Shown: positions 5,300 through 35,202 of the stretch, piece by piece
Layout: every line of letters starts with the position of its first letter
Numbering within the stretch: the first letter of the stretch is position 1
Assembly: GCA_013297655.1 (NCBI GenBank)
Contig: JAAFHV010000024.1
Location: forward strand, 1-56,894
Direction of reading: 5' to 3'
Length of the DNA: 56,894 bases
Source of the DNA: Myxococcales bacterium
GTDB taxonomy: Bacteria > Myxococcota_A > Polyangia > Polyangiales > Polyangiaceae
Position numbers and translations under genes: made by a program
Notes under the pieces: model-generated
The model's database searches: none
Seen by the model: only the letters and a program-made list of their open reading frames with translations
What the model was told of the DNA's origin: nothing

Positions 5300-5726
5300 C
5301 GATGTTACGGCGCTCCTCGCCCATCGCTCGCGCCGCCAGGCCGAGCTCCACTGCCTGGTCCGCGGCCTTGTCGTTGCCGTTGGCAAATTCCATCAGAAGC
5401 TGCGTCAAGATCGGGTCCTTGCCCTCAAAGCGTACCTAAAGATCTTGAGTGCGAAGGCGATGCGCGGGCACTCGATGTGCCCATTCGGCAGCCAGCGTCG
5501 ACTGCGGGCGTGCCATCTACCTTGGCTGGCTAAGCTCCGTGCGGGAGGCCAACGTTGTCCTGCGAAATCCTAACAGTGTCACCCAGAGTCACATCGCTCC
5601 GCGGCGCCTACTGCTTGAGATCGACAGGCTTCGATCTGAAGAACCGCCTCGAGGAACGAGACTAACTGCGACGGCGAGCGTAGGTAGACCGGGGCAAGCT
5701 GTAGCTGGTGACAACGACCGACGATT
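5300..5726. other. Gene-poor stretch
   Basis: About 430 bases. On the - strand, 5408 to 5302 reads TQLLMEFANGNDKAADQAV and beyond, which faintly resembles the start of an ECF-type sigma factor, but it is too short to name. Nothing else supported; it probably contains the promoter for the following cassette. Confidence 0.3.
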
Positions 5727-7175: not shown

Positions 7176-7197
7176 GCGCTACACACTGCCAAATCGG

Positions 7198-9234: not shown

Positions 9235-9254
9235 GGGCTTATGCTCGCTGTGCT

Positions 9255-18021: not shown

Positions 18022-18610
18022 TTACGTCGTCAGGCTCAGTCTCTACGCCTTGCTTGTTCAGCAGAAGATGGGTTCGCAGGAACTTGATGAGCACCTGCTC
18101 CGTCTGCTTGCAGAGTTCTTCGTTGGTGATCTCTAAGTAAAACGCAGATGCCACCACCGGGGGGCGGAACCAGAACTTTTCGGTATGCTCTGGCACCCTT
18201 TCCGAGATGGGCCGTTTCGTGGCGCGGCCCACGTACACCGGCCGTTTCGTCTTGTCATAGAAGACGTACACGCCCTTCACCGGCGGTAGCGCAGCCTCGG
18301 CGTAGGGGTCGAAGCTAACGAGCGACCCGATGCCGGGAATTTCCGTGTCCTTTACCTCTGCGTCGAGGATCTTTTGGTCGGGCCCGGTGCCGAGCGCAGC
18401 TCGCAGCTTCTCCACGGTGGCGGATTGCGGATTGCGTGAGCGCCCAGTCTCAAGGTTCGAAATCTGCTGGCCGCTCAGACCAGCCTTCCTGGCGAGCTCC
18501 CCCTGCTTCCAGCCCTTTTTGCGACGTGCTGCACGTAGCCAGACCGCAAAGGGCGGAAGCTCCTCTTCCTCGTCAGCTTCGTGCCCATCTTCATTCTCAG
18601 TGGCTTCCAT
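18014..18610 (-). CDS. XRE helix-turn-helix fused to a GIY-YIG nuclease domain
   Basis: 198 residues from ATG 18610, with a purine-rich GGGCAAGG ribosome binding site just upstream; the longer frame to 18667 would overlap brxC. Residues about 21-75 form an XRE/Cro-type helix-turn-helix (KQGELARKAGLSGQQISNLE). Residues about 111-190 form a GIY-YIG fold: GVYVFYDK at 113-120, PVYVGRA at 124-130, ISERVPEHT, Glu171 in the helix, and Asn185. All catalytic positions of the family (two Tyr, Arg, Glu, Asn) appear present. It sits between brxC and pglX. It could repress the operon and/or cut DNA; compare BrxR in other BREX loci, which uses a WYL domain instead. Confidence 0.85.
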   Translation of the reverse strand: MEATENEDGHEADEEEELPPFAVWLRAARRKKGWKQGELARKAGLSGQQISNLETGRSRNPQSATVEKLRAALGTGPDQKILDAEVKDTEIPGIGSLVSFDPYAEAALPPVKGVYVFYDKTKRPVYVGRATKRPISERVPEHTEKFWFRPPVVASAFYLEITNEELCKQTEQVLIKFLRTHLLLNKQGVETEPDDVNG

Positions 18611-18621
18611 TGACCTTGCCC

Positions 18622-21600
18622 TTATTGAACGATGACCTTCTTGCCAGCCCCAATGAGCCGTGCGCACTCCTCGCGTACGCCGTCGAGCGCGGCCTCGAGC
18701 TGCTCTTCCGTCTCAACGCCCCCGGCGAAGTAGATGCCGATGCTAACGGTAACGACGCGCTCGCCGTCGAGGATGCGACGCAGCTCGGCGATGGCGGCGC
18801 TGAGGCGCCCGCCGCAGGCGTCGCGTTCGGCGCGAAGCTGCGGGACCGGCACGACGAACTGGGGCTCCGCTGCCCCATGGCGCAAGGGCGCGTCGAGCCG
18901 AGCCCGCTGGTCGTCCGTCAGGTCGCCCCATCCGGGCGTGCGCGCCAACGTCTCGCGCGCGTTCGTGTAGGCCAAGATGCGCTGCTCGAGGGCGGCCGAG
19001 TAGCGTTGGCCGTACGCCTCCTTGAGTGCCCGAGCGTGCTGCTCTATCGCCGGTAGGTCCCGGAAGAAGGTTTCGCGTGCGAGAAGGTCCTCGAGCGAGG
19101 TGGCGCGGGTGCGTAGCTCGTCGCTTAGGTCGGATTCCTGTCTCAAGAACGTCCAACAGTCGGCCATCGTCTTGCGGGCGATATCGAGGTCGTACAGACG
19201 GGACTCGTTGAGGACCTGCTCGAGCTCTACCGCGCGCTTGACCGCGTCCTTGATGCCACGGTGGCTCGCGTTGAACGTTGCGATGGCGTTGTCCTCGGAG
19301 CCGCGCAGGATGGCCTTCATCTGGCCGATCGCGCTCTCGAGCACCGCGCCACCCGGCAGGCGGTGCGCGGCGAGCGTTGCGAACGCAGACGAGACGGTGT
19401 CCTCGTGATGCGCGACCTGCTTCCGCAGGTCGGCCACGATGGCGCCGGCGTTCAATTCCTTCACTTCGCTGCCGAAGGTGTCGCGGAAGGCCTCGGACGC
19501 CTTCACCAGCTCCTCGAACTCAATGCCCTTCTTCGGGCGGAACGAAGCCTGCCGGAACAGATTGTTGTTCGAGAAGGTATCTCGCGCTTCGACACCGGTG
19601 ACCGTGTCGAGCGTCTGCCCCTTGCTGGTCGCCTCGATCTTGCCGGCGCGGAGCAGCGACAGCACCAGAAGGCGCACGGCTTCGAAGTCCCAGCCAAACG
19701 GCTCCTTGGCGAGCTCTTCTGACAGGTAACGACCGCTCGCGGTATCACCGTAGTTGGCGCGCTCGTCGATGCGGTCGAGCACCTCCTTGAGTGGGCCGCT
19801 CTCCGTACGAAACACCGTCTTGCCCTTCTCGTCACGCAGAAGGCCGAGGCCTCCGAACACGCTCGGCAGGCCCTGAAGGTTTTCGGCGGTGAAGAGCGCA
19901 TCGGCGCCCTTCTTCACGTCTGCCCCCTTGGCGGCGGCCTCCTTGAAGCGATCGAAGACCTCGGGCAGCACCGTGCCGAGCACCTCGGAGGCCGTCTTCC
20001 CTACGTCGACGGCGCGGTCGCCGGGGCTGCGGTCATTGCCCCGGAAGTAGATGCGGCCCGAGAGCGCCGCGGCCTTGAGCAGCCGACGCAACTCGTCGCC
20101 GTGACGGCGCAGGCGAACGCGTTCTTCCGCAATAAGGCCGGGAGTGTCCTCGCCTTTGGTCTCGCGCTCCTTGCGCGCGAGCATCTCTTTCGACCGGAAG
20201 AGCTCGTCGATTTCGCGCTTAATCGCGTCGGTGAGCGCGACGGCCCAGAAGACGTGCTTGCGCTCCTGCTGGCTGCGCGTGCGCAGCTCAGCCGCAAGAC
20301 CGTCGAAGTCCGCGCCATCGTCGGCGAGGTGGACCTGGAACACAATGTCACCGGCCGTGAGCTCGCGGCCGTGGATGGCGAGCCCCGCCTTGAAGGTCTT
20401 GGTGTCGAAAAGCGTGTGCGAAGGCTGCGGCTGCCAGAAGCCCGAAAGCACCTCCTGGTAGAGTCGGTGCGAGTCGCCTGGCTTCGCGCTGATGCCGTTG
20501 CGCAGGCGCTCCCAATCGTCTTCCGCGGGAGTCGGGATGCGGTAGCCATCATCACCATGGCGCACCTGGTGCGACGCCTCGAGCGCTCGCAGGGCTTCCT
20601 TCACGGAGGCAAGCTGCGAGTCACCCCCGACCTGGCCATGCAGGGCGGCCGCGAGGTTCTCCGCGCTGCGGTGCACGCTCTTCACGTACTGGAGCAGGCA
20701 GATGACCTTCGCCACCGCCTGCGCCAGCGGGTGGTCGACGAGCTTCGAGATGGCGGAGATCTTCGCGCGCACCTCGGAGCCGATGTTGCCCTCGACGAGG
20801 TCGTAGACGTGATCGAGCCGCACGAGGTCGCCAACCTCGCCCTCGGCGAGGTTCACCGCCGGGTTGATGAGGAGTTGCTGCGCGAGCTTGATGATCGTGC
20901 GGTTCGCGCCACCGACGTGCTTGCTGGCTCCGCCCTGCGTGCGCAGGCCCGAGACGACCTGAATGATGAGGTCGATTTGGTACGGAAGCAGCGGGTAGAG
21001 GTCGATGAAGGCCTGACGCGAAAGGTCGGGGAGCTTGATGTCCGCAGTAAGCCTCGTGTGATCGAGGAGCCGCGCACGATGGTCGTCGAAGAGCTTGCCA
21101 AGCGCCGTTTGCGCGGCAGCGTTCTTGGACAGCACGCGGCGGCTCGTGACCTCCGAAATGTCGCTCGGCTCGAGGTGAACCTGCAGCGGGAAGCGGTCCA
21201 TCAATCGGGCAAGCTCGATCTTCTTGTCATCGAGACCGGAGACGAGCTCGCCGAGCTTCTCTTGGGAGGTGACGACGACCCAGTGCTTGCCGCGCCCCTT
21301 CACGCCGAGCTGCTGCACGATGGCCTGCAGGTCGAGCATCTTCTGGACGTCGCGAGCGACGAACTGGCCGACCTCGTCGACCACGAACATGAGGGAGAGC
21401 CCGGGCTTGCGGCGCTTCATCAGCTCGCCCGCGCGCTCGGCGAGCTTGCCCGGCGTGATGTCGGCCTTGTTCTTGACGGCCTTCACCCACGAGTCGGCGA
21501 CCGGGTAGGTGTCGGGGTCGAGGCTGTGGAGCACGCGGCTCGCCTCGGACAGCGCGAAGGCAACCTTGCTCTTCTCGCTGGACCACGCCTTCTTGAAGAG

Positions 21601-22167
21601 GCGCTTGTACTCGTCCTCGAACTTGCCGAGCGAACCCTTATCCTCGAGGCCGATCTCGAGCTCCGAGAGGTCGAGATCCTTCGCGTAGCCGAGGCTTTGG
21701 AGGAAGAGCCCGTACATGATCTCGGTAAGGGTCTGGTTGCCGCTGCGGATGCCTCGGTCGGTCGAGACGTCGAAGATGACCGCGTGGGTCGGGATCTTCT
21801 CGTTGATGGCCTTGAGCAGGACCTGAAGCTTCTTGTCGCCGGTGCGCTCGGCGAAGCGCTCGGCGGCGGACTCGCCGACCACCGTGCGGTTTGCGACGGA
21901 GAGGCCGAGCATCTTGGCGAAGCTCGACTTACCGGAGCCGAAGAAGCCCGAGACCCAGATGGATACGCCGTCGGTCGGCTTGTTGGGGGCCTCGCGGTAC
22001 GCCTCGAAGATGCCGGTGTAGTGCGTGCGGATCGCGTCCGTGACGACGTACTCCGTGATCTCGTCGCGGATGATCTCTTCGTCGGTCTGGTCGACCTTGA
22101 TGACTTCTTCGATCCGACGATGAATGTCGTTCGCGAACAGGGTCTTGATGGGCGTCGTCATCGTCAT
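18622..22167 (-). CDS. brxC: BREX P-loop ATPase BrxC
   Basis: 1181 residues, in the usual range. Walker A is GFFGSGKS (74-81) within an N-terminal AAA domain, with Walker B LSLMFVVDEVGQF further on. The remainder is helical, as in other BrxC/PglY proteins. BrxC is essential for BREX phage exclusion and is thought to act as an ATP-dependent complex member with PglX and PglZ. Start ATG 22167 lies 5 bases after the brxB stop, with GAGGA as ribosome binding site overlapping the end of brxB. The next gene (XRE/GIY-YIG) begins 11 bases after its stop. Confidence 0.95.
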   Translation of the reverse strand: MTMTTPIKTLFANDIHRRIEEVIKVDQTDEEIIRDEITEYVVTDAIRTHYTGIFEAYREAPNKPTDGVSIWVSGFFGSGKSSFAKMLGLSVANRTVVGESAAERFAERTGDKKLQVLLKAINEKIPTHAVIFDVSTDRGIRSGNQTLTEIMYGLFLQSLGYAKDLDLSELEIGLEDKGSLGKFEDEYKRLFKKAWSSEKSKVAFALSEASRVLHSLDPDTYPVADSWVKAVKNKADITPGKLAERAGELMKRRKPGLSLMFVVDEVGQFVARDVQKMLDLQAIVQQLGVKGRGKHWVVVTSQEKLGELVSGLDDKKIELARLMDRFPLQVHLEPSDISEVTSRRVLSKNAAAQTALGKLFDDHRARLLDHTRLTADIKLPDLSRQAFIDLYPLLPYQIDLIIQVVSGLRTQGGASKHVGGANRTIIKLAQQLLINPAVNLAEGEVGDLVRLDHVYDLVEGNIGSEVRAKISAISKLVDHPLAQAVAKVICLLQYVKSVHRSAENLAAALHGQVGGDSQLASVKEALRALEASHQVRHGDDGYRIPTPAEDDWERLRNGISAKPGDSHRLYQEVLSGFWQPQPSHTLFDTKTFKAGLAIHGRELTAGDIVFQVHLADDGADFDGLAAELRTRSQQERKHVFWAVALTDAIKREIDELFRSKEMLARKERETKGEDTPGLIAEERVRLRRHGDELRRLLKAAALSGRIYFRGNDRSPGDRAVDVGKTASEVLGTVLPEVFDRFKEAAAKGADVKKGADALFTAENLQGLPSVFGGLGLLRDEKGKTVFRTESGPLKEVLDRIDERANYGDTASGRYLSEELAKEPFGWDFEAVRLLVLSLLRAGKIEATSKGQTLDTVTGVEARDTFSNNNLFRQASFRPKKGIEFEELVKASEAFRDTFGSEVKELNAGAIVADLRKQVAHHEDTVSSAFATLAAHRLPGGAVLESAIGQMKAILRGSEDNAIATFNASHRGIKDAVKRAVELEQVLNESRLYDLDIARKTMADCWTFLRQESDLSDELRTRATSLEDLLARETFFRDLPAIEQHARALKEAYGQRYSAALEQRILAYTNARETLARTPGWGDLTDDQRARLDAPLRHGAAEPQFVVPVPQLRAERDACGGRLSAAIAELRRILDGERVVTVSIGIYFAGGVETEEQLEAALDGVREECARLIGAGKKVIVQ

Positions 22168-22172: not shown

Positions 22173-22751
22173 TCAGAAGATCTTCGGGCGGTAGTTGTGC
22201 TCCGCGTCGAGCACGCCCATGAAGCGCAGACCTGCCGCGCCATCGAGGTCGCCGGGGTAGAAGAGAACGGTGGGCACGAGGACGCGGCCCTTGAGCTGCT
22301 CGAGCAACGAGAACGTGCGGTACACGGGAAAGAGCGCGCCGGTACGCATAATAAGTACTACGTCCCGAAGCGGATCACCGTCGTCCGGTAGTTGCGACGC
22401 GACGAGGTCGACGAGCGGCGAGTCGCCTTCGGAGAGCACCGCGTGAACCGTTTCCACTACCGTGTCCGTGCCGAGCTCACGCTCGACGTCGAACCACTCG
22501 GGGAGCGGACGCTGCAACCGCATCGCGGCATCGAGACACTGAGCGAGCGAGATGCGGCGAACTCGCTTGCCCTTTTGCTCGAGACGCGTCTCTAGCAGGG
22601 TGACCTGCTGGCGCAGCGCAAACTCTTCTTCTGGGTCGTAGCGAAAGAGAGCATACGGCATATCGTGATACGCGCTGATGCGTTGCCGGGGGTCGTGGAG
22701 CGCGAGAACGGGCTCTAGGTCTTGCTTCAGCCGGTGCTCAAGGTCGCTCAT
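22173..22751 (-). CDS. brxB: BREX protein BrxB (DUF1788)
   Basis: 192 residues, normal for BrxB. The sequence shows the family pattern: an N-terminal DLEHRLKQDL helix, PYALFRYDPEEEF, and a C-terminal LIMRTGALFPVYRTFSLLEQ followed by VPTVLFYPG. BrxB is a small conserved BREX component needed for defence whose biochemical role is not settled. Its start overlaps the brxA stop by 4 bases (ATGA). Cytoplasmic, no membrane segment. Confidence 0.92.
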   Translation of the reverse strand: MSDLEHRLKQDLEPVLALHDPRQRISAYHDMPYALFRYDPEEEFALRQQVTLLETRLEQKGKRVRRISLAQCLDAAMRLQRPLPEWFDVERELGTDTVVETVHAVLSEGDSPLVDLVASQLPDDGDPLRDVVLIMRTGALFPVYRTFSLLEQLKGRVLVPTVLFYPGDLDGAAGLRFMGVLDAEHNYRPKIF

Positions 22752-23527
22752 GCCACCATCCTCTCGGCGTATTCACCCGTGCTGGCGCAGGGAAGCGAGA
22801 GCTCGACCAAGCTGCCAGCGACTTGGTACTCGAGCTTGCGAAACTGATGCAGGCGGAGCAGCTCGTGCTCGACGTCGGACGGCCGCATCAAAAACAGCCG
22901 CCAATCGCGCGATGTCACCACCTTGCCCGGGCTAAGCCGCTGGTCTCGCATCGCGTGGAGCAAATACAGAAAGCTGCGTTCGGGCAGATGGAACGGCGCC
23001 AGCTCCTTCACTACGCTCCCCCGAAGGAGGCCGAAGTCGGCCGCGACCTTGAGGAGACCGGCCGCAACTCGGTTCGCGGTCTGCTCGGACCACGCGTGCT
23101 CCGTCTTCCCGCCACGCTTCGAGATTTCGGCAAGGTAGCTCTCCACGTCCCGGGTACGGGCCCGAAAGGTGCCCGCCTCGAACTCCTGAAAGAGCCAGTT
23201 CTCCAGGAAGTCGCGAACGAGAAACTCATCGCGGGTCATGTGCCACAGGAGCAATGGGCGCCACTCGTCGACTGGCAATCCGCGCTTCGCGAGCACGACG
23301 AGTGGTCGGTCGCGACCAGCGGGATCGAACCTCCGATTCAGCACCTTCGCGACGTCGCGCAACCAGGTCACGCTCTTGGCTCCGATGAAGTTCTGGTCGC
23401 GAAGGTGAGCGAGGTTCTCTCGTTTGGTGCGATCGAAGTCCCAGGCCGCGAAGACAGCATACGTCTCCTCGATCATCGCGCCCTTCACCGCCGTGAACGA
23501 CGATGCGACATTCGCCCGCGCTGTCAA
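22748..23527 (-). CDS. brxA: BREX protein BrxA (DUF1819)
   Basis: 259 residues when started at TTG 23527, which overlaps the brxE stop (TTGA); the longer frame up to 24007 runs through brxE and is rejected. Family landmarks are ENLAHLRDQNFIGAKSVTWL, LLLWHMTRDEFLVRDFLENW, the WSEQTANRVAAGLLK helix and FLYLLHAM. BrxA is a small helical DNA-binding protein found in type 1, 3, 5 and 6 BREX. It is followed directly by brxB. Confidence 0.92.
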   Translation of the reverse strand: MTARANVASSFTAVKGAMIEETYAVFAAWDFDRTKRENLAHLRDQNFIGAKSVTWLRDVAKVLNRRFDPAGRDRPLVVLAKRGLPVDEWRPLLLWHMTRDEFLVRDFLENWLFQEFEAGTFRARTRDVESYLAEISKRGGKTEHAWSEQTANRVAAGLLKVAADFGLLRGSVVKELAPFHLPERSFLYLLHAMRDQRLSPGKVVTSRDWRLFLMRPSDVEHELLRLHQFRKLEYQVAGSLVELSLPCASTGEYAERMVA

Positions 23528-24090
23528 ACGTCGGCCCTGCGCGCGTAGGGAACCGCAAGCGAGCCCGGCTCGCCGCGAGCGAAGCCCAGAGCCAAGAGCG
23601 CGACGTCCGCGTCCGTGCTGGAGAACATGCCCGGGAGCGGTACGGCTCGGTTCTCCGCTCCGCGCCGAAGCCGCGAGTAGGCTTCCAAGTCCCGGTCGGT
23701 CACGAGCTCGGCCTCGCGAAGCGTGGCGGCGAGGTCGTCGCTGCGCAGGGTCTCGACCGTCTCGAAGAAAGGGGTCCACGCCGCCGCGTTGTCGAGCCAG
23801 TACTCCCACCGCGCGTCGACCTCCTCTTCGATGACCTCCGGTAAGCGCCAAAGGGTGACGCTTCCTGGGGGATCGAAGACCTCTGCACACCGGTGCGCGG
23901 CGACCGCAAAGACAGACCTGGCCTGCGCGAAGCGATGCGTGCGAGGGAAGCCGCGCTTTAGTGCCGCCGCCCCCATTCGCCCGAGCTGGCCTTTGGTGTT
24001 CCACCACTTGGCGCCGTCCATTTCGCCGAACCGCGCGACAGCCAGGCGCAACTTGAGGAGGCGTTCGAGGTCGATGTCATGAGTCTTCAT
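23524..24090 (-). CDS. brxE: BrxE-like protein, first gene of a type 6-style BREX operon
   Basis: 188 residues from ATG 24090. Features include an N-terminal LERLLKLRLAVARFGEMD, then KWWNTKGQLGRMG, and a C-terminal DADVALLALGFARGEPG. This pattern and the position directly before brxA match BrxE, the small protein that marks type 6 BREX loci; its function is unknown. There is no good Shine-Dalgarno, and the 74-base gap to the upstream helicase gene is the longest break inside this part of the run, so an internal promoter may lie here. Soluble protein, no signal peptide. Confidence 0.75.
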   Translation of the reverse strand: MKTHDIDLERLLKLRLAVARFGEMDGAKWWNTKGQLGRMGAAALKRGFPRTHRFAQARSVFAVAAHRCAEVFDPPGSVTLWRLPEVIEEEVDARWEYWLDNAAAWTPFFETVETLRSDDLAATLREAELVTDRDLEAYSRLRRGAENRAVPLPGMFSSTDADVALLALGFARGEPGSLAVPYARRADV

Positions 24091-24164: not shown

Positions 24165-27100
24165 TCAACAAGCGCGGGTTGGCAAGATCACCTCCACCAT
24201 CCCGCCCCCCATCGGCAGGTGCACCCACGTCCCGAGCACCTTCGCGCCCGACCGCTCGAGAACCTTCGCGTACACCGCGAGCTGCGGCGCTACCTCCAGC
24301 GCTTTTTTGCGCCAGGCCCCCTCGCCCACCCCCGGGAAGGTCTTGTGGTCTACCACCACCACCCCGTCGTCCGTCTCGAGCAGCAGATCGACGATCCCGC
24401 TCACCTTCCGCTCGCCATGGGCCGACGTTACCACCGCTTCGACCACGAGCTCGCGGTGCCATCTCGCCCCTGGCCAGTGCGCGTCGGCCCAGGCGCGCAG
24501 CGCGTCGCTCGCGCCCACGAGCTCGTCACCACGAACGTATCCCCGCATCGCCACCGCATGCAGTAGCCTGACCGCGCATGCCACGCGGGCCTCGGGGCCG
24601 AGACCCGGAACGTCCGCGGCGAAAAACGCATGGGTCGCGGTACCGAGAACCTCGTAGTCGTACGCCTTGCCAGCGAGCTCGATCGCTCCCTCGAGCCGCT
24701 CGACGCGACCAATTCTCGCCTGCCCCACTGCGTCCTCGACCTCCGGCCAATCGGCCTGGCTCGCCGACGGCCGAATCTTGTACGCGAGCCGGCTCGGTCT
24801 CTCTGCTGGGCGCGCGAACCAAACAGGCTCCGGACGAGAACCCACCTCGGTCGGCGGGACGTCGGCCTTGAGCCGCCACACCCGGGTCGCAAAGACAGCC
24901 GTCGTGCCATCGGCGCGGCGGACCGAAACGCTGCCGCTGGTCCCGTCCGCCGCGCCAGTGGGCAGCGACAAGATGGGCTCGTCCTTGTGGTCCGCGAGCT
25001 CGTTCAACCACGCCGTCTCCGGCTTCATGACGTCGTCCTTGTTCCTCTTGACCTTCACCGCGAGCACGAGATGGTCGCGCGCGCGGGTGAAGCCGACGTA
25101 GAGCAGGCGCGTCCGTTCGCGTTCTTCTCGTGCGGCAACGTCGCGCCCCTCCGGCGCGCGCGCGGCCTTGTCCGCGAGCGGAATCTTCGACTTTTGCTGC
25201 CCGAAGGGCCACGGCCAGTACCGAATCCACCGCTTCGACAACGGATGCGCCGGATCGAACTCCGCTGCGTCCGACTGCGGCAGCACATCGAAGGCGTTCC
25301 GGCGGTCGCCGCGATCGAGGCTCGCGAGCACGACTACCGGCCACTCGAGGCCTTTCGACTTGTGGTACGTGCACACCGTCACGCTCTCGTCGTCCGAGGT
25401 CACGTGCTGGTCGTCCGAAGCGATCATCTCGGAGCGCACGTACATGGCGCGCCGCGCGGCGTCGAAGTAGCGCAGCAGGCCGGCGATCGTGCTGGCCTCG
25501 CGCTCTTCACCGCACCGTTCTTCGTAGGTCCGAGCCAAGGTGCGCAGCGCCTCCAAGTTCGCCATGCGTTCGGGTCCGCGTGGCCATCGCGCGCACAACG
25601 TCACCGCGTCGAGCGCGTCCATCGCGGCGTCGAGCGCCTCGGTAGGGCTCAGAGCTCCCGCCTTGTCCCTCACTGAAACCAGCGCCGCACGCCACCCTCC
25701 GACCGGGTCTACGCGCTCCTCGGGCGCCGCGCGTTGATTCTCCAAGACTCGCCTGAGCCACTGCTCGGGCAATTTCCCATCGAATCCAGTGAGCGCGTCG
25801 ATTGTAGCCGCTGCGAGCGAGTCGGTGCCGTCGAGAAGCCAACGGAGCGCGCTGTCAGCAAGCGTGCCCTCTGGCGTCGCGAGCAAGCCGGCGCGCGCGA
25901 CAGATGCGCGGACATTCCGAGCGTGGAGCGCCGAGGCGATTTCTTCCGCTTCCTTGTTGGTCGCGACGAGCACCGCGATGTCACCAGCGCGCACCGGCCG
26001 CACCACTCCGCTCGTGCGGTCTACCACCGCGGTCGCGGCAGAATCGCTCAGCATCCTCGCGACGCCACTCGCGATAGCGATCGCAGCCTCGGACGCTTTG
26101 TTCACGTCGAGACAGAACAGCCCCATCGGCGCAAGTCCTGCGAGCGGCGCCCCGCTTCGCTTCGCTCCGACCTGCACGTCCGCCGCGGAGAAGCCGTGCC
26201 TCGCGAGCGCGTGCGAAAAGACCTCGGAGCAGGCGGCGACGAGCTCTGGCCGCGAGCGATAGTTGTCGACCAGGCGCTCGGCATGGCCTCCCGCGGAGCT
26301 CACCCACGCCGAAACCGCGTCCATGAGCTGTGGGTCCGCGCCGGCATACTCGAAGATGCACTGCTTGCGGTCGCCCACCCAAGCAGACGCTCCGACGAGC
26401 TTGTGGAGCTCGACGAAAAGCGCCAGCTGAATCGGGCTCGTATCTTGAAACTCATCGACCACCGCGAGCTCGAGTCGAGCCCCCAGCACCTCGCGCACCC
26501 GCGGCGCTTCGAGCAGCGAGAGCGCGCGGTCGAGCATATCGACGTAGTCGACGACCCGTTGGCGTGTCTTCCACGCCTGATACCCCTCGAGCCCACTCGC
26601 AGCTGCTTCGTAGACCGCCATCGTGAGGTCACGGATGTCGGCGTGCAGGCGCGGGTGGGCCTCATAGCGTATCGCCGCCTCGCAGACGGGCGCGACGAGC
26701 GCTCGTGTTGGCTTACTCGGATCGAGAATGCTGAGCTTCACCCAGCCGCTCCATCGGAGCTCGCCGTCCTGCATGAGGCGCTGAGCCTCGCGAAGCTCTT
26801 CGATCGTTTCCGTCGTCTTCTTGACACCATCGCCTTCGCCAACGCGCTGGAGCGCGATGGCGATCTGACGTTCGAGGTTCGAATCGATCGCGCTACCGTC
26901 AGCCTCCGGGTGTGGGAACAGCGCAAGGAGTGCGTCTGCCGAGCGAGCCGCCATCTGCGGCAGGGCGTCCGCCGCGATTCGATTGCTCCGCGCGAGGTTC
27001 ATGATCTTGTCGACCGGCAGCGTCCAGTCGAACCGATTCTCTTTCGAGCTCTTGTGAAGCTCTACGCTCTCGGCGAGCCGATCGAGCCGTTCGCGCAGCT

Positions 27101-27476
27101 CCGCCGGGAGCGCGAAGTCTAGACTCTCGCGAAGAAGCTTGCCCTGGTCACCCGCGACCACGTCGACGTGAGGCGAGAGGCCCGCGTCCAGCGCGAACTC
27201 CTGCAACAGGCGCAAGCACGCGGCGTGCACGGTCCCCAGGTAGGCCAGCGGGAGCTCGCGAGCGAGGTCGAACGCTTGCTCCTCGACCAGCTTTCGCCGA
27301 ATCCGTGCCGCGAGCTCGGCGTGCGCCTTTCGCGTGTACGTCACGGCAAAAAGCCCATCGAGCGCGATCGGGTTCGCCGACGAGGGCGCGACCGCATCGG
27401 TGACCTGGCGCGTGAGCCGGGTCGTCTTCCCGCTGCCCGCGCTCGCGCTCACGATCGTGATGCCTCTCGCGCTCAT
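24165..27476 (-). CDS. AddA/UvrD-like helicase-nuclease
   Basis: 1103 residues from ATG 27476, which overlaps the AddB-like stop (ATGA). Superfamily 1 helicase motifs are all visible: Walker A ASAGSGKT (11-18), DEFQDTS (341-347), VGDRKQCIFEYAGAD, NYRSRPELV, YHKSKGLEWPVVVLAS and TRARDHLVLAV. A C-terminal PD-(D/E)XK nuclease follows (VDLLLETDDGVVVVDHK, near residue 1040, then APQLAVYAKVL). This is the domain order of AddA, the helicase-nuclease subunit that processes double-strand DNA ends. It may serve general recombination or be a defence-dedicated copy; its tight linkage to BREX and to the glycosylase gene favours the latter but does not prove it. Confidence 0.88.
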   Translation of the reverse strand: MSARGITIVSASAGSGKTTRLTRQVTDAVAPSSANPIALDGLFAVTYTRKAHAELAARIRRKLVEEQAFDLARELPLAYLGTVHAACLRLLQEFALDAGLSPHVDVVAGDQGKLLRESLDFALPAELRERLDRLAESVELHKSSKENRFDWTLPVDKIMNLARSNRIAADALPQMAARSADALLALFPHPEADGSAIDSNLERQIAIALQRVGEGDGVKKTTETIEELREAQRLMQDGELRWSGWVKLSILDPSKPTRALVAPVCEAAIRYEAHPRLHADIRDLTMAVYEAAASGLEGYQAWKTRQRVVDYVDMLDRALSLLEAPRVREVLGARLELAVVDEFQDTSPIQLALFVELHKLVGASAWVGDRKQCIFEYAGADPQLMDAVSAWVSSAGGHAERLVDNYRSRPELVAACSEVFSHALARHGFSAADVQVGAKRSGAPLAGLAPMGLFCLDVNKASEAAIAIASGVARMLSDSAATAVVDRTSGVVRPVRAGDIAVLVATNKEAEEIASALHARNVRASVARAGLLATPEGTLADSALRWLLDGTDSLAAATIDALTGFDGKLPEQWLRRVLENQRAAPEERVDPVGGWRAALVSVRDKAGALSPTEALDAAMDALDAVTLCARWPRGPERMANLEALRTLARTYEERCGEEREASTIAGLLRYFDAARRAMYVRSEMIASDDQHVTSDDESVTVCTYHKSKGLEWPVVVLASLDRGDRRNAFDVLPQSDAAEFDPAHPLSKRWIRYWPWPFGQQKSKIPLADKAARAPEGRDVAAREERERTRLLYVGFTRARDHLVLAVKVKRNKDDVMKPETAWLNELADHKDEPILSLPTGAADGTSGSVSVRRADGTTAVFATRVWRLKADVPPTEVGSRPEPVWFARPAERPSRLAYKIRPSASQADWPEVEDAVGQARIGRVERLEGAIELAGKAYDYEVLGTATHAFFAADVPGLGPEARVACAVRLLHAVAMRGYVRGDELVGASDALRAWADAHWPGARWHRELVVEAVVTSAHGERKVSGIVDLLLETDDGVVVVDHKTFPGVGEGAWRKKALEVAPQLAVYAKVLERSGAKVLGTWVHLPMGGGMVEVILPTRAC

Positions 27477-30343
27477 CGAAACTCCTTCCACGACTTGCCA
27501 CACAGCGGGCCGAACGCGCAGTACTTGCACGCTCCTTCGTCCCCCGGTTGCGCCTCGAAATGTCTCGCGCGTGCGGCTTCATCGACGCCGAGACGTTCGA
27601 GCAGCGGTGGGTGCGTTGGCTGCGCCACCATGACTTCGCCGGCCTCGAGGCGCGCGACGATTAGGGCGCGCGTGCTCTCGAACCGGTCCCACGTCTCTTC
27701 GAGTGAGGGTCCTCCGATCGACTTGGAAGCCTTCATTCGAGCGTCGGTCGTAAGCACCCTAGCCGCCGACAGCGCGTAGTACCCCGCGGGCGGAGACGTA
27801 GGCGGGGTGGATTGCGCCCCGACCGCCCGCGAGTAGAGCGCCAGCTGGATCGCGTTCCCGCCCTCGAGCTGCTTCTTGTAGGTCGATTGGCCCCACTTGA
27901 GGTCCAGGATCGCCTCGTTCCCTGCGTCGTCCTCGAGCAACAGGTCGAGACGACCGTGCGGCGACCCGACGGATGCATTGAGGACCACAGGAGCCTCGAC
28001 GGCCTTGATTCGGAGCTTGGCCCGGGCGAAGTACCGAAATAGCTCGCGCATCGCGATGGCGACCTGCTTCGTCAGCTGCGAGCGCTCGAACACCGCGCCG
28101 GGCAGCAGCAGCGTGGCGGCCTCCGTGCGGACGAGCAACTCGATTGCTTTCCGGGTGCGTTCGGCGAATGCGGGCTCGCCCTCGTTGAACGCCCCTTCCC
28201 GGAACAGCTCCTCAACGAGTCGGTGGCTGAGGTTACCGTTCAGCAGCGGGCCCTCGGCTACTTTGGTTATCGAACCGAACCGCAGCTTGGCGAGGTGTTC
28301 GAGCACCCAGGAGAGTGGGCAACTCGCCAGCGCCTGGAGGGCCGTTGCGCTCGCGCCGACGGAGCCGTCGGCCTCGAGCAACGCGCCGGGCAAGGTCCAC
28401 GCGCCGGCTGCGGCAGGCAGCGAAACAGGCGGGAGTGCTTGGGTTCGCACCCTGGCGCTCGGCGCCTCGCCTCGCAGAACCTTCCGCACGTCGCACACGA
28501 TCTTCGCGTGAGCCTCAGGAAGCTCGTCGAGCCGGAGCCGCGTCGAGATCTCGTCCCACAGCGGGTGCGGAGAGGCCGCAGCGCCGTTCACCACACCGGG
28601 CACCACGAGCACAAGTCGTTCCCTCGCGAAGAGCACGGTCCGTCGCCATGCCTCTCCTTCTGCAGCAAGAAGCTTTCGCGGGCTCACCAGCTCCACGCCC
28701 GCTGCCTCGAGGGCGGCCATCTCCGACGTGGTCCACGGCCGAGGGCGTGGACGCTCCTCCGTGCCGCTGACGAAGGCCCACACGAGCATCGTCGATGCCG
28801 GGGCGAGGACGGTGGCAGGATTGTCGACATGGGGCGAGCGACCACTCTCTTCCGTCGCCAGCTCGAGCCGTTCGGAGCGACGTGCGACGGCATCGAAGAG
28901 CTGGCGGACATCCTCGCGCGACAGCCTATCAACGTCGTGGTTGACGATCGCCTCCGCGAAGCGAGTACTTTGCGCCACGGCGGATGCGTAGAGCGGCCGA
29001 AGATCCTCGATCGCGAGCTGCCCTCGCAACCAGTCTTGGGTCCGCTTCACCACAGTGAGGAGAGAGGCCTTGTCGATTTCGTCGCCGTCGATACCGGGTT
29101 CCTCAATCCACTCCGCGACTCGGAGCAATCGCGCTGCAGCATGAGCCTCCGCTTCGGCTAGAGCGTCGGCCTCGGTTGACCCCTCCGAAACGCGCCTGCG
29201 CGACACGCTCGCGACAAGGGCTTCGCGAGCCTTGCCCTTCTGGCGCCGCCACTCTTGCCCCGAAACGCCTGGTTGCCGGGCGATTGCCTTTGCCAGGATC
29301 GCCCCGAGCCTTCCACGAAACGGTCCGAACGGGAGGGTCAGCAGCTCGAGCACGCGATGCGGGTCTTTCGGCTCGAACGCGAGCTCCAGCGCGAGCGGTA
29401 GAACCTGGAGGGCCGGCCGCGCTGAGCTCGTCCCCGTGAGCCCGTGCCCGGGGAGACCGAAGCGCCTCGAAGCGCTTTCGAGTGGCTGGGGATCGGCACA
29501 GCGAATCACCAAGGTGTCGGAGCGCTCGTCGGCGAGCAGGGCCGCGGAGAGCTCGGCCGCTTCCGTGGGTGTCTCCCCGCGCACCATAAGCAACGAGCCG
29601 TCGCCGGAGACCGGTGCGTCCGGTGGAGCCCCCATCTCCTCGAGGAGCATCTGCTGCAGCTTTCCGAGGTCGGACTCCGGCGCGGCGGGAGCGAAGACGA
29701 GCAACTCCTGAGATACGGTGGTCCCGTTCTTTTCGAGGGCAACGAACACTCGCCGCCAGAGGAGCGACCAGATGTCGAGCCTCTCCACGAGAAGAACCTG
29801 GTCGTAAAGGCTCTGCGGGTGCACGGCGAGCTCCGTCAGGACCCGAGCCAGGCGGTCGGGCCTTCCGGGAGGCAAGGGATGCAAGGGGAACTCCACGTCG
29901 TCACAAAGACGCGCGAGCGCACCGAGCCGTTCGACTCCTCCCGCCAACACCTTCCCATCCCAGCCCGCCTCGACGAGCTCGTCGCGCCATCGGAGGAGCA
30001 GCTCTCCCGTGCCAAGCGAATCGGCCTCGAATGAGCGCGCGTAGAAGGCTTCCCGGGTGACAGCCGCTCTCATCCGCGCCACCCAACGCGGCAACCGCGC
30101 CGACCCTCGCTCGTCGACCTCGGGCAGCCCGAGGCGCAGCTCGAGATCGCGCAGGAAGCCCACCGGCCCGAGCGAAACCTCGCCAACCGCGCCTGGCCTC
30201 ACGTGGCGCGGTCCGTCCAAGGCGACTCCGAGACGAACTGTTCGACGAATTGGGCTCAAAGAGGTGCCTCGAGGGAGCGCGACGAATCGCCGGCGCACGG
30301 AAGTTCTACGCTCGTTGGTCGCGCTATTCGCACGACTTGGCAA
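27473..30343 (-). CDS. AddB-like PD-(D/E)XK nuclease with Fe-S cluster cysteines
   Basis: 956 residues as read from TTG 30343, 17 bases after the glycosylase stop; a GTG at 30298 is an alternative start. The C-terminal nuclease domain has NLSHRLVEELF, RLDLLLEDDAGNEAILDLKW (the D...DxK catalytic core) and a Cys set made of one Cys in ALASCPLSW plus C939-x2-C942-x5-C948 at the end, the layout of the iron-sulphur AddB/Cas4-type nucleases. The N-terminal part looks like a degenerate helicase fold without a Walker A, as in many AddB relatives. It is expected to pair with the AddA-like protein in degrading or resecting linear DNA. Coupled to addA by ATGA. Confidence 0.83.
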   Translation of the reverse strand: MPSRANSATNERRTSVRRRFVALPRGTSLSPIRRTVRLGVALDGPRHVRPGAVGEVSLGPVGFLRDLELRLGLPEVDERGSARLPRWVARMRAAVTREAFYARSFEADSLGTGELLLRWRDELVEAGWDGKVLAGGVERLGALARLCDDVEFPLHPLPPGRPDRLARVLTELAVHPQSLYDQVLLVERLDIWSLLWRRVFVALEKNGTTVSQELLVFAPAAPESDLGKLQQMLLEEMGAPPDAPVSGDGSLLMVRGETPTEAAELSAALLADERSDTLVIRCADPQPLESASRRFGLPGHGLTGTSSARPALQVLPLALELAFEPKDPHRVLELLTLPFGPFRGRLGAILAKAIARQPGVSGQEWRRQKGKAREALVASVSRRRVSEGSTEADALAEAEAHAAARLLRVAEWIEEPGIDGDEIDKASLLTVVKRTQDWLRGQLAIEDLRPLYASAVAQSTRFAEAIVNHDVDRLSREDVRQLFDAVARRSERLELATEESGRSPHVDNPATVLAPASTMLVWAFVSGTEERPRPRPWTTSEMAALEAAGVELVSPRKLLAAEGEAWRRTVLFARERLVLVVPGVVNGAAASPHPLWDEISTRLRLDELPEAHAKIVCDVRKVLRGEAPSARVRTQALPPVSLPAAAGAWTLPGALLEADGSVGASATALQALASCPLSWVLEHLAKLRFGSITKVAEGPLLNGNLSHRLVEELFREGAFNEGEPAFAERTRKAIELLVRTEAATLLLPGAVFERSQLTKQVAIAMRELFRYFARAKLRIKAVEAPVVLNASVGSPHGRLDLLLEDDAGNEAILDLKWGQSTYKKQLEGGNAIQLALYSRAVGAQSTPPTSPPAGYYALSAARVLTTDARMKASKSIGGPSLEETWDRFESTRALIVARLEAGEVMVAQPTHPPLLERLGVDEAARARHFEAQPGDEGACKYCAFGPLCGKSWKEFR

Positions 30344-30359
30344 AAGTTCAGTGCCCGGA

Positions 30360-31316
30360 CTACTCGGATTTCACCTTCCCGCCCACCGTGACACCGACCG
30401 CCCAATCCCTCCGTTTCTGAGGACACACCGACGTCAGCGGGCATTCGTCGCACAGCGGCTGGCTGTGGACGCAAAAGCGCTTACCGATCCAGAAGGCACC
30501 AAGGTCGAGGGCCGCGGGAAACGTTGGTGACGCCTTACGGGCGGCCGCGATAACGGACGGCTTGAGCTCCGCCGCACGGTAGACCTTGCGGCCCGGCTCG
30601 CCCGAGACGAGTCCGGAGCGCAGAAATACGCGCGCCACGTGGCGATCGACTGCGACGTTCACCGCCGCGAGGTTCTCGACCGTGATGCCGAGCTGGCTCA
30701 CTAGAATCTGCAGAGTCATCGCGCTCAGCTTGTGCGATATGCCTCGAAGCGACTCGAGCTCTACCAGCAGCTCGCCCGCGTCGACTCCGTCGCGCAGCAT
30801 ATTGACAACCGACCCATCGTGGAACTTCACGACATGTTGGGCGCACTCTATGAAGGCCCGCGCCATCGCCGCATTGAACCGGTGAAGGCTCGTCGGCGCG
30901 CGTAGTTTCTTCTCGAGATCGTCTGGCGATAGGGCGGCGATCTTCGCTACGTCGAGTTGCTTGAGTCGCTTAGAAAGCTCGAAAGGAAGCTGCCACGCTT
31001 TCTCTGCCTTGATCATGCGGTCGGAGATGACGCCATACAGGAAGGCTGTCGCGTGGTCGCGTTCCGTCCGAACGAACGGGGACGAGAGATTCCAGCGCCT
31101 CGCGAGCTCGACGAAGGTCGTACGCGGCACCATCTTGATGGGCTCGAACTCCATGATGCGGTCCGCGATGGGATTTGTTGACGACAACCGGACCGTCGGC
31201 GTCTTCTTTGACGATCGCTTGGCGCGGCGCTTCGGCTTTTCCTCGTCGTCCGTATCAGGTCCGAAGATCGTCTTCTCGAGGCCATCGATCAACTTACGAA
31301 AGAAACTCTGCGCCAT
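30360..31316 (-). CDS. Endonuclease III-like [4Fe-4S] DNA glycosylase
   Basis: 318 residues with a good AGGGGGCGGA ribosome binding site. A basic, low-complexity N-terminus (about residues 22-42) precedes a HhH-GPD core: the hairpin region LRGISHKLS with the lyase-type Lys196, and the catalytic Asp224 in VDRHVARV. The C-terminal cluster is C282-x6-C289-x2-C292-x5-C298, exactly the spacing of endonuclease III. A bifunctional base-excision activity is therefore likely, though the damaged or modified base is unknown. It is divergent from housekeeping Nth in the middle and has an unusual N-terminal extension. Position directly before the AddB/AddA pair suggests that it makes abasic sites or nicks that the helicase-nuclease then exploits (inference). 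Confidence 0.8.
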   Translation of the reverse strand: MAQSFFRKLIDGLEKTIFGPDTDDEEKPKRRAKRSSKKTPTVRLSSTNPIADRIMEFEPIKMVPRTTFVELARRWNLSSPFVRTERDHATAFLYGVISDRMIKAEKAWQLPFELSKRLKQLDVAKIAALSPDDLEKKLRAPTSLHRFNAAMARAFIECAQHVVKFHDGSVVNMLRDGVDAGELLVELESLRGISHKLSAMTLQILVSQLGITVENLAAVNVAVDRHVARVFLRSGLVSGEPGRKVYRAAELKPSVIAAARKASPTFPAALDLGAFWIGKRFCVHSQPLCDECPLTSVCPQKRRDWAVGVTVGGKVKSE

Positions 31317-31362: not shown

Positions 31363-31998
31363 TCATCGAACCCGCGCCGGAAACAGCCTGGTCTTCCCGC
31401 TCGCCGCGCGTGACATCCCGCTAAACCCGAGCCCTCGCGCGAGCTGGTCGAACGATGCGAGGAACGCTCTTGCTACCGTGTCCACCCGAGGCCCTCCACG
31501 CTTTCGCCCGCGAGGAAACGCCGCATAGAACTCGGACACGAGCGCGAGGTCGAGCAGCGTAGAGCGGAGCCAGTCAATCTCCTTCGTGTAGCCCGAGACC
31601 CACCTGGCGCCGGACGCGTTCATCAGGCGCGCGAGACTCGCGCGCCGCTTTCCGGGCGCAGACTCCACCATCTCGCAGCAGCCAAAGTGTAGGTACCCGA
31701 TCGCACCATCCTTCGCGGTCGCCAGCGCTTCGTACAACTGTTCCGGTGCGATACGCGACCGGGCGTCGGCCGGCCTGAGGTACATCTGCTCGCCGTGGCA
31801 CGCGAAGTAGACGAATGCGCGCTCTCCCTTGCTGAGGCGCTTCACGTAGTACTCGATATCTGCGACGGAGCGAATGGTGCGATGGCTAAGGTCGATGTCG
31901 CCGTGGCTCGCGGCGAGCGCCTGAAAGTAGGAGAGCACCAACGGCGTCTCCTTCTTGCTCCACCAGGTCCCTTCGAAGATGTAGACGGGCGCTTTCAT
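31363..31998 (-). CDS. Caspase-like (CHAT/C14-type) cysteine peptidase candidate
   Basis: 211 residues. Two motifs look like a caspase-fold His/Cys dyad: FVYFACHGE (His68) and IGYLHFGCCEMVES (Cys107/Cys108), each after a hydrophobic beta-strand and about 40 residues apart, the normal spacing. The N-terminal APVYIFEGTWWSKKETPLVL and the absence of a signal peptide point to a cytoplasmic protein. I recall uncharacterised proteins of similar layout (DUF6642-like), so the family may already be named without a known function. Its start overlaps the stop of the EEP gene (ATGA), so the two are coupled. A role as a cell-death peptidase in defence is plausible but is inference. Confidence 0.6.
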   Translation of the reverse strand: MKAPVYIFEGTWWSKKETPLVLSYFQALAASHGDIDLSHRTIRSVADIEYYVKRLSKGERAFVYFACHGEQMYLRPADARSRIAPEQLYEALATAKDGAIGYLHFGCCEMVESAPGKRRASLARLMNASGARWVSGYTKEIDWLRSTLLDLALVSEFYAAFPRGRKRGGPRVDTVARAFLASFDQLARGLGFSGMSRAASGKTRLFPARVR

Positions 31999-32708
31999 CG
32001 GCCTTCAGCCACGAGCTCCAACACCACCGGCCCGTGATCACTCACCCGCCGCACCACCGCATCATCCACGACTCGGCACTCCCTCACCCGCCCCGCCCAG
32101 CTCTCCGAAACGAAGAAGTGGTCATCCTGGTACGCCTCCTTCGCCTGGCGTCCCCAGAAGCTCTGGACCTCCTTCCCGTGAATCCGCCAGTGCGGCTCTT
32201 GGAACCCCGCCGCGGCCATGGCCCCGAAGAACCCGGCGTGTTTCTTCCCGCCGTACACCTCGTCGAAGCGCCGCGCGGAGTTGAAATCCCCGCCCACGAG
32301 CACCGGCCCATCGAACGTTCCCGCGAGCAGCTCCACGAGCCTCGCGAGGTCCGCATGCTGCTCCTTCCCAGGAAACACGTGCGCGCTCACCACCGTGAGC
32401 GGCCCGGCCTCCGTCTTCATCTCAACCGTGGCTGCATACGAGCTCGCGCTCACCGCGATCGCCTTCGCATCCGTCACCTCGCGCCCACGCACGAGCACCG
32501 CCGTCCCCGCGTCGACTCCAGTCGCCAGCTCGCACACCTTCACCGCGAACGTATCGCGCACCGCCTCCACTTTCGAGAGCAGCGCCTCCTGAACGAGCGC
32601 CACGTCTGGGCGTAGCTCGTTCGTCAGGTAGTCCCACGCTTCCGCGTGCGACTTCCTATACGTAGAGTGCCGTGGACCACACCCCATATTCCACGTAACG
32701 ACGCGCAT
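31995..32708 (-). CDS. Endonuclease/exonuclease/phosphatase (EEP) superfamily protein
   Basis: 237 residues from ATG 32708; an AGGAGG lies almost touching this ATG, and the longer frame to 32870 would add a Gly/Arg-rich non-natural leader. EEP-fold motifs in order: VTWNMG, PDVALVQEA (metal-binding Glu), LTVVSAHVFPG, GGDFNSAR, YQDDHFFV and SDHGPVV (catalytic His). Members are Mg2+-dependent DNases, RNases or phosphodiesterases; the substrate cannot be predicted. No signal peptide. It is translationally coupled to the caspase-like gene, forming a two-gene unit at the upstream side of the defence island. Confidence 0.85.
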   Translation of the reverse strand: MRVVTWNMGCGPRHSTYRKSHAEAWDYLTNELRPDVALVQEALLSKVEAVRDTFAVKVCELATGVDAGTAVLVRGREVTDAKAIAVSASSYAATVEMKTEAGPLTVVSAHVFPGKEQHADLARLVELLAGTFDGPVLVGGDFNSARRFDEVYGGKKHAGFFGAMAAAGFQEPHWRIHGKEVQSFWGRQAKEAYQDDHFFVSESWAGRVRECRVVDDAVVRRVSDHGPVVLELVAEGR

Positions 32709-32806: not shown

Positions 32807-33892
32807 TCACATCTCCCGAACCAGCGCCGCCTCCACCATCACCCGGACCGCATCTCGACACGCTGCGCAATCATGCTCCTTCGCGCACGCCAGGTAGTCC
32901 CCACTCTCCGGCCCGTTCATCTCCGCCCCGCAGAGCGCCCTATACCTCTCCTCGCTGCCTCGGAGCGTATCCCGATGCCGCGTGTAGTGAGTCATCGCGG
33001 GCAGGCGGACGCGCGGTTCCTGAATGGTCCGCAGCCGCCCGTTGTCCGCGACCACGGCGAGGGTGAATCGCTTTCGCAGCGCGTCGCCCAGTTGCTCGCG
33101 GCCGTGCGCCTCCCGCCACACTCGCCATAGATCTCGCGCCTTTCCCGCGGTCACGGTCCAAAGCGTGAACCTCCCCGCGACGAAGAAGCCGTCGCGCTCG
33201 AAGGTGGTCTCGCCCACTGTGCGGTCGGCCTCTACCAAGAAGAAACGCTCGTGCCCATCGGCCGAACGGTGAAGCACTCCCAGCCACTTCGTCGCGTGTA
33301 CCTCGCCCTCCACCACGTTGCCACTCACGCGGACGCGCTCGTGAAGCTGCTCGTTGCCCGCGATCGTGAACGCTCCCGCCGTGCTCCTTCCCACCCGTAC
33401 GCGAAGCGGCGGCGCCTCGCGTGCGAGCGAGCGCGGTGCACGCGCCCGGACGTTTCGATACCTCTCGAGAACGGCCTGTTGAAACATCAGGCGTCCTTCC
33501 CTCACCCACGAAGCAAGCTTTCCCGCCTTCACCGCGAGCCGCACCTCTGCCTCGTCCACCTCCAGGAAGCGCGCCGCGTCGGCCACGGTGAGCACATGCA
33601 GGGCCTCCAGGCGGGCCAAGTCGCTCGCGGTTTTGCCCTTGCGCCAGATGATATCCGACATCGCGCGATAGGCAGGATTCGCTTGCACGGTCGCGGTTAC
33701 GAACCCGAGCGTCGGATGAATCGTGGAATCGAGGAACGGGTTCTCGTGGGAATACCCGAGCGAGATCAGGTCGTTCTCGGTCGTCGCCTCGCTCGCCGCG
33801 AGCTCCGTGAGCCGGTCGAGGAAGGCGCAGTCCGCGCTCTCCGGGTCGAGCGTCACGGTGTGCCCGCTCGCCGTCGTGTACAATCGTTCCAT
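32807..33892 (-). CDS. Hypothetical protein with a helix-turn-helix-like segment and Cys-rich end
   Basis: 361 residues from ATG 33892, where the natural-looking sequence MERLYTTASGHTVTLDPES begins; the longer frame to 34012 is Arg/Ser-rich and unlikely. Residues about 105-150 (ALHVLTVADAARFLEVDEAE) resemble a MerR/excisionase-type winged helix. The C-terminus carries CGAEMNGPESGDYLACAKEH followed by DCAACRD, a set of Cys residues suited to a small zinc site. No family recognised. As the first gene of the - strand run it could be a regulator of the downstream genes, but the 98-base gap to the EEP gene and the lack of known relatives leave this open. Confidence 0.6.
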   Translation of the reverse strand: MERLYTTASGHTVTLDPESADCAFLDRLTELAASEATTENDLISLGYSHENPFLDSTIHPTLGFVTATVQANPAYRAMSDIIWRKGKTASDLARLEALHVLTVADAARFLEVDEAEVRLAVKAGKLASWVREGRLMFQQAVLERYRNVRARAPRSLAREAPPLRVRVGRSTAGAFTIAGNEQLHERVRVSGNVVEGEVHATKWLGVLHRSADGHERFFLVEADRTVGETTFERDGFFVAGRFTLWTVTAGKARDLWRVWREAHGREQLGDALRKRFTLAVVADNGRLRTIQEPRVRLPAMTHYTRHRDTLRGSEERYRALCGAEMNGPESGDYLACAKEHDCAACRDAVRVMVEAALVREM

Positions 33893-34182
33893 CTGGAATC
33901 TCACTTCTCGGCTCGAGGATGCGGAAGCGTACGGGCCGACCGTACGCTCCGGGCGGTTTCCCGCGTTCGGAGCAAGCCAACGCCCTGCCACCGTGCCCTG
34001 TGCGCTCTGCACAAAACGCGAGTGATAGGAGCTGTCATGCCTCGGGTTCCTCGAGGTGAAGGAGGCGGACCACGAAGGTCCGACTCTTCTGGTTTAGCGC
34101 GCGAACGCGACGTGTCGAACGCGAACGCTCGTCGATGGCCGCGCGTCGTGAACACCGTTACCCTCGCCCCTGGAAGGTCTAC

Positions 34183-34560: not shown

Positions 34561-35202
34561 TCACGCATCTGCGGCAGGTCCCAAAATCCGCGTCACCGCC
34601 GCCGACATCTCCCGCAGCGATCCGAACGTCGGCACTGCCCCGCGATCCAACCGAAGGCTCGACGTCCCGAACAACCGGTCGGGAAACTCAACCCGCTCCC
34701 CCGCCCCGAACCGCGCCTTGAAATGGGCCCGCAGCCGCGACGCCGGAATCGGCACTCTACGAGCAGGCTCGGCAGTCGAAGCCCACGGCGCCTCGAACCG
34801 CGCCTCCTGACGAAGGCCCCGGCCGAGCAGCCTCCCGTAGACATTCAGCACGTCATCGATGCAGCTTCGCGCCCGCTCCGAGAACGCGCTCGCGGGCCCG
34901 AACGCTTCGAGGATCGGCTCCGCGTCGCGCTCTCCGTACGCAGCAAAGGTCGCTGGAGAAACGGGACCATGTGCCCACGCCTCGAACGCGATCACCCCGG
35001 TCTCCATCTCCAGCTCTTCGGCCAGCAGCGCGCCATAGCCATAGAAACACAGCGCCCCGACCTCCATGTGCGTCGCAGGAACCGCCCGACCCGCGCGGGC
35101 CAGACGAGCCATCACCCACGCCGCGAGCCCGAGGGCCGCCGACACGTTCACGTCTTGGCGATCCATCTCGCCCGAAGCCTCGTCTTCCCGCCGCACCAGC
35201 AT
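34561..35202 (-). CDS. Panacea-domain (SocA/DUF4065-like) antitoxin-type protein
   Basis: 213 residues from ATG 35202 (ATG 35166 is an alternative). Residues about 45-95 match the Panacea domain: MEVGALCFYGYGALLAEELE followed by FEAWAHGPVSPATFAAYG. Panacea proteins are known as antitoxins of many unrelated toxins and as the proteolytic adaptor SocA. The C-terminal ~100 residues are divergent. It starts 1 base after the stop of a lipoprotein gene, so the pair is transcribed together although they are unlikely partners. No small toxin-like gene is obvious next to it. Confidence 0.7.
   Translation of the reverse strand: MLVRREDEASGEMDRQDVNVSAALGLAAWVMARLARAGRAVPATHMEVGALCFYGYGALLAEELEMETGVIAFEAWAHGPVSPATFAAYGERDAEPILEAFGPASAFSERARSCIDDVLNVYGRLLGRGLRQEARFEAPWASTAEPARRVPIPASRLRAHFKARFGAGERVEFPDRLFGTSSLRLDRGAVPTFGSLREMSAAVTRILGPAADA

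Follow-up and report, generated by a model that had tools for sequence, protein, structure and literature searches.

An AddAB-type helicase–nuclease pair upstream of BREX in a Myxococcales bacterium as a probable exchangeable accessory of defence systems

The BREX system of a Myxococcales bacterium is preceded by an AddB–AddA gene pair that is probably a second, horizontally exchanged AddAB-type helicase–nuclease of this genome and an accessory of several anti-invader systems. In the usual view, AddAB and RecBCD serve chromosomal repair and degrade phage DNA only incidentally. In this study, the pair was analyzed in a stretch of 56,894 nucleotides (contig JAAFHV010000024.1, hereafter the window), which is part of a draft genome of 9.9 Mb. 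The relatives of the pair are mostly located beside type I-G CRISPR or BREX genes, in agreement with an earlier note in which AddB–AddA was proposed to be linked to defence rather than to housekeeping. The glycosylase gene that the same note had joined to the pair adjoins it in the window and at none of 43 other loci of the pair. If the proposed role is true, a mobile AddAB would give BREX an end-degrading partner and type I-G CRISPR a built-in source of fragments.

The AddB–AddA pair and its locus

The three same-strand genes described earlier at 24165-31316 (glycosylase, AddB and AddA) are present as open reading frames (ORFs), and they share the minus strand with brxE-brxA-brxB-brxC. In descending coordinates, the order on this strand is HTH_17, EEP/ExoIII-like, DUF6642-like, HhH-GPD, AddB-like and AddA-like genes, followed by BREX. 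The latter continues as brxE, brxA, brxB, brxC, an Xre protein, PglX (two ORFs), an AAA–HNH pair, PglZ and BrxL. The genes around the pair are as follows.

32807-34012, minus: HTH_17 domain protein (HTH_17 E 2.5e-5, below the cut-off)
31995-32708, minus: EEP-family (ExoIII-like) nuclease or phosphatase (Exo_endo_phos 4e-13, TIGR00633 2e-5; start ATG 32708)
31363-31998, minus: DUF6642-like, possibly caspase-like protein (weak DUF6642 match, E 0.05)
30360-31316, minus: HhH-GPD glycosylase/lyase-like protein with a 4Fe-4S motif (TIGR03252 6e-18; MutY and Nth weak)
27473-30259, minus: AddB-like pseudo-helicase with an Fe-S PD-(D/E)XK nuclease (PDDEXK_1 6.5e-22; ORF open to 30343, TTG)
24165-27476, minus: AddA-like SF1 helicase–nuclease, UvrD core and C-terminal PD-(D/E)XK (Pfam UvrD 2e-34, PDDEXK_1 4e-8)
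23524-24090, minus: brxE family gene, the first BREX gene past AddA (NCBIfam BrxE_fam 5.8e-46)
22748-23527, minus: brxA (PADLOC BrxA 1.5e-109; start set by analogy with the brxE–brxA overlap in locus L131)
22173-22751, minus: brxB (PADLOC BrxB 6e-59)
18622-22167, minus: brxC (PADLOC BrxC 2142.8 bits, E 0)

The AddB stop codon occupies 27473-27475 and the AddA ATG lies at 27476, which confirms the ATGA overlap noted earlier. The gap of 17 bases given between the glycosylase and AddB did not hold up equally well, as it depends on the TTG at 30343 and the homologues start later. Judging from these homologue starts and a preceding GAGG, TTG 30259 is the more likely start of AddB, and the gap would then be about 100 nt. 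The ExoIII-like and DUF6642-like genes were rejected as conserved parts of the locus: the homologues examined occur without BREX or the glycosylase, and those of the DUF6642-like protein do not adjoin BREX. Upstream of the operon, an ORF at 34561-35202 (minus strand) resembles, by eye, DUF4065 (Panacea/SocA-like) antitoxin-domain proteins.

AddA matches Pfam UvrD and PDDEXK_1 and retains intact ASAGSGKT, DEFQD and GIVD..DHK motifs, in keeping with its earlier description as an AddA-like helicase–nuclease. Its best solved relative in the PDB is Bacillus subtilis AddA (3u44). It also matches the NCBIfam AddA and RecB families, far under their cut-offs, with 168.7 of 707.65 bits for Gram-positive AddA and 161.1 of 860.75 bits (TIGR02785/TIGR02784 cut-offs).

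By sequence, AddB gave a Pfam match to PDDEXK_1 only, and its profile matched no PDB chain; its identity was later resolved by a fold search. An AlphaFold model built from 15 sequences (pLDDT 84.5) matched B. subtilis AddB 4ceh_B over residues 1-926 (Z 18.7, 12% identity) and AddB 3u4q_B with an E value of 5.7e-21, with RecC as the second-best match and AdnA thereafter. The nuclease residues H679, D772, D786, K788, Q805 and Y809 and the Fe-S cysteines C647, C911, C914 and C920 are invariant in all 15 aligned sequences, which bears out the earlier view of an AddB-like nuclease with Fe-S cysteines of its own; a Walker A motif is found in none of the 15. As modelled, AddB apparently combines an inactive helicase fold with an intact-looking nuclease site.

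By composition and predicted fold, the two proteins are a genuine AddAB-type heterodimer, in which AddA carries a motor and a C-terminal nuclease and AddB a whole-length scaffold fold with an Fe-S nuclease. B. subtilis AddAB (3u44, 4ceh) has the same two subunits, the full-length AddB fold, the AddA motor and nuclease, the Fe-S nuclease of AddB and the order addB before addA. However, the window AddB is only 12% identical to its counterpart, has no Walker A motif and matches no PDB chain by sequence, the window AddA scores far under the equivalog cut-offs, and the window pair appears to be accessory and mobile and lies beside defence genes. RecC of RecBCD is likewise an inactive helicase scaffold subunit, whereas the window AddB has an active-looking nuclease and Fe-S cysteines.

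Copies of the pair in this and other genomes

The same genome contains another AddB–AddA pair on contig C539, with overlapping ORFs of 1119 aa (AddB) and 1212 aa (AddA), and a further helicase and PDDEXK pair at C317. The window AddB was matched in 19 of the 184 genomes of the order, a patchy distribution. Because of the separate pair at C539 and the presence in only these 19 genomes, the window pair is not considered to be housekeeping, and it does not belong to the NCBIfam equivalog of housekeeping AddAB. The earlier note had reserved a housekeeping reading for a genome with no other AddAB or RecBCD and a triplet conserved without defence genes; the C539 pair shows that this is not such a genome.

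To describe the neighbourhoods, ORFs of the loci were marked by similarity to proteins above the NCBIfam cut-off (Cas3g, Cas8g1, Cas8g2, Cas7g, Cas4g-Cas1g, Cas2 and Csb2), and the count covers 17 copies of the order, namely those whose flank is readable. Type I-G genes adjoin the pair in 11 of the 17 (L120, L045, L046, L049, L050, L119, L121, L124, L127, L128 and L130); the copies in L046, L049, L050 and L124 are directly beside Cas4-Cas1/Cas2, and a large CRISPR array lies beside the pair in L124. BREX adjoins two copies (the window and L129), and neither marker was found at four (L047, L122, L125 and L126). Copies without a recognised defence gene nearby are those of L047, L126, L021 and L028. 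Csb2 occurs in 62 of the 184 genomes, the host genome not being one of them; seven copies of AddB have a Csb2 gene no more than 10 kb away, compared with an estimated chance expectation of approximately 0.02, based on genome size and the count of Csb2 loci. In a locus from Planctomycetota (L027), a 16-repeat CRISPR array follows right after AddA. By eye, SbcD-SbcC-like genes immediately precede the pair and array in that locus (5065-9926). The type I-G locus L130 retains only a 5' fragment of AddB (8679-9383), indicating that decay of the pair is possible at a locus that keeps its cas genes.

An unassigned, unrelated bacterium (L023) has the same order AddB-AddA-brxE-brxA-brxB-brxC, and all three BREX-linked pairs (window, L129 and L023) are directly upstream of brxE. 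Among plasmids, AddB was found in 26 records, 17 of which are conjugative, and AddA was found over most of its length in 26 records. The plasmid pairs are located in defence islands. In the nine plasmid regions examined, AddB and AddA are always adjacent, and most of these pairs lie beside multiubiquitin/ThiF/Mov34, CBASS cyclase, SIR2, N6-methylase, SNF2 or WYL genes, with Cas genes not in view. A viral origin of the glycosylase or AddB was also considered and rejected: no relatives of either were confirmed in viral_contigs, and among phage records AddB yielded a single unannotated one and the glycosylase none.

A maximum-likelihood tree of AddA with 29 rows placed the window copy in a clade of seven (support 100/99), the other members of which are I-G-linked, unmarked or cut off. 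Its nearest neighbour is the I-G-linked L119, with modest support (85/88), and the BREX-linked AddA proteins of L129 and L023 are on separate branches from it. Because the window AddA groups with CRISPR I-G copies and the other BREX-linked copies are elsewhere in the tree, the window copy seems to have switched partners, and BREX has apparently acquired the pair on at least two occasions, always at the position upstream of brxE.

In L131-L137, the seven loci whose BREX is closest to that of the window (BrxC 65-89% identical), neither AddBA nor the glycosylase lies upstream of brxE, and of the 40 genomes of the order in which BrxC was matched, only two have AddBA adjoining BREX. The pair is not a core BREX component, as it is missing from close relatives of the same BREX.

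The glycosylase and the role of the pair

The glycosylase was described earlier as having an intact lyase Lys, Asp and 4Fe-4S motif, and this was confirmed: K196 (LRGISHK), D224 (VAVDRH) and a C-X6-C-X2-C-X5-C motif (C282, C289, C292 and C298) are present and are kept in two homologues. The helix–hairpin–helix Lys, catalytic Asp and cysteines place it in the HhH-GPD superfamily. Its family scores are 24 bits in Pfam against a cut-off of 26.2, 65.1 of 136.5 bits for TIGR03252 and 23.4 of 211.7 bits for Nth; going by these profiles, it is a probable relative of TIGR03252 and MutY/Nth that falls below every cut-off, and it is a member of neither the Nth nor the TIGR03252 equivalog. An AlphaFold model from three sequences only (pLDDT 44.5) was too poor for fold comparison.

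The search for glycosylase homologues covered 145 relatives together with 379 genomes from the phylum and 318 from the class. Among the genomes searched, strong homologues occur only in G098 (L070), G192 (L141) and G523 (L183), and none of the three is near AddBA or BREX. The first is beside a transposase-like ORF, the second has a recombinase, a DNA methylase and possibly a restriction gene as neighbours, and the third has no recognised defence genes nearby. The search for the triplet in other genomes that had been suggested earlier found the glycosylase at none of the 43 other AddBA loci. The module of glycosylase, AddB and AddA was therefore rejected as a conserved unit, its glycosylase homologues residing elsewhere; the glycosylase is an independent neighbour gene that is not conserved together with the pair. 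On a plasmid of Rhizobium sp. T1473 (L138, 9650-15510), a weak glycosylase relative comes after a dTMP kinase gene, with two radical SAM genes and a pyrophosphatase gene in the vicinity, a group that resembles a base-hypermodification set.

Defence glycosylases had been cited as a precedent. Both Brig1 and Brig3 are members of the uracil-DNA-glycosylase (UDG) superfamily, and Brig1 homologues are often near BREX/Pgl (PMC11078745, PMC13160076). The window gene is similarly near defence genes, but its product is an HhH-GPD protein with an Fe-S motif that matches HhH-GPD, MutY and Nth models and no UDG model. They are thus a precedent for the general idea and not for this protein, which is of another superfamily.

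The best reading of the pair is an exchangeable defence AddAB that would degrade broken invader DNA. The complex would load on DNA ends produced through nicking, breakage or stalling of invader DNA by the primary system, or possibly on those left after the action of the neighbouring system. AddA would then unwind from the end and both strands would be cut, such that the invader DNA would be destroyed even if the main AddAB of the cell were blocked, the different AddAB in the genome staying available for repair. At type I-G loci, the resulting fragments might in addition serve Cas4-Cas1/Cas2, and the glycosylase, if it acts in defence, would only add nicks. A wider claim, to be held tentatively, is that this AddAB lineage may be a dedicated exchangeable effector for type I-G CRISPR, BREX, ubiquitin-like and CBASS islands, destroying ends for whichever sensor it adjoins and acting as a prespacer source in CRISPR. 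The absence of the pair from the seven close BREX relatives, its rare adjacency to BrxC and the copies that lack a recognised defence neighbour count against the accessory-defence reading; furthermore, location in a defence island is by itself no proof of a role in defence, and the distant copies of Synergistota or Mariprofundaceae may have a function in repair.

The original proposal, in which excision of modified phage bases by the glycosylase is followed by a nick from its lyase and by degradation of the DNA by AddBA, is now very improbable. The three genes are adjacent on one strand, the catalytic Lys, Asp and Fe-S motif are intact, and two genes upstream there is an ExoIII-like gene. However, the triplet is absent from the 43 other AddBA loci, the strong glycosylase homologues are in other contexts, and Brig1 and Brig3 fall in a different superfamily. 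In addition, AddAB and RecBCD need a double-strand end, and a single-strand nick left by a lyase offers no such loading end. It is also unlikely that the pair belongs mainly to type I-G CRISPR, as a module for making prespacers or processing ends, and that BREX loci received it as a passive passenger. In the order, I-G genes adjoin most copies and Cas4-Cas1/Cas2 directly adjoins several, the window AddA falls among copies linked to I-G, and RecBCD and AddAB supply spacer acquisition in model systems. Nevertheless, the three BREX links are at one place upstream of brxE and on separate tree branches and the plasmid copies have no Cas genes in view, for which reason a role outside CRISPR is needed; the nuclease residues are also still intact in the window copy. 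A redundant DNA-repair paralogue brought into defence islands by the hitch-hiking of mobile genes would fit a family devoted to repair, and some copies, such as those of L021 and L028, have no recognised defence neighbours. This explanation is likewise doubtful, given that copies recur next to unrelated defence systems in different phyla and on plasmids and that the same genome has a separate AddAB.

Among known systems, UvrD-Cas4 fusions similarly combine a PF12705 nuclease with a UvrD-type helicase in defence contexts (Hudaiberdiev 2017, PMC5704561). These are single chains linked to type III RM and Dcm-Vsr and were proposed to be ancillary in several systems, whereas the window has two overlapping genes with two nuclease sites and links to type I-G CRISPR and BREX, and it is not one of these fusions. 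No PADLOC model matched the window AddB. A literature search on AddAB in connection with BREX, type I-G or I-U CRISPR or defence islands, mostly among openly accessible papers, found no description of the pair; the AddAB family itself is already known, and priority for its link to type I-G CRISPR or BREX is not proven.

The BREX genes of the window

One published account describes the BREX core as being without an apparent nuclease (PMC9122589). In a detailed 2026 survey of nucleases accessory to BREX, the words AddA, RecB, UvrD and glycosylase are absent from the main text (PMC12839542). The same survey reports OLD-ABC/HNH dyads for BREX, which are resembled by a pair in the window between PglX and PglZ, consisting of a PtuA/OLD-like AAA ATPase (PtuA model E 6e-19) and a weakly HNH-like protein (11816-13815, minus strand). 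An Xre HTH protein with a C-terminus that is GIY-YIG-like by eye lies between brxC and pglX (18014-18667, minus strand). In L134, L135 and L136 this slot is occupied by AlbA_2/Schlafen-looking proteins, as if it were an exchange position, and a serine-recombinase-like gene is near BREX in two of the seven close relatives. PglX itself is split into ORFs at 15805-18021 and 13775-15808 (minus strand) with an ATGA overlap, which may reflect a natural split, a frameshift or faulty assembly; its homologue in L131 is a single continuous ORF.
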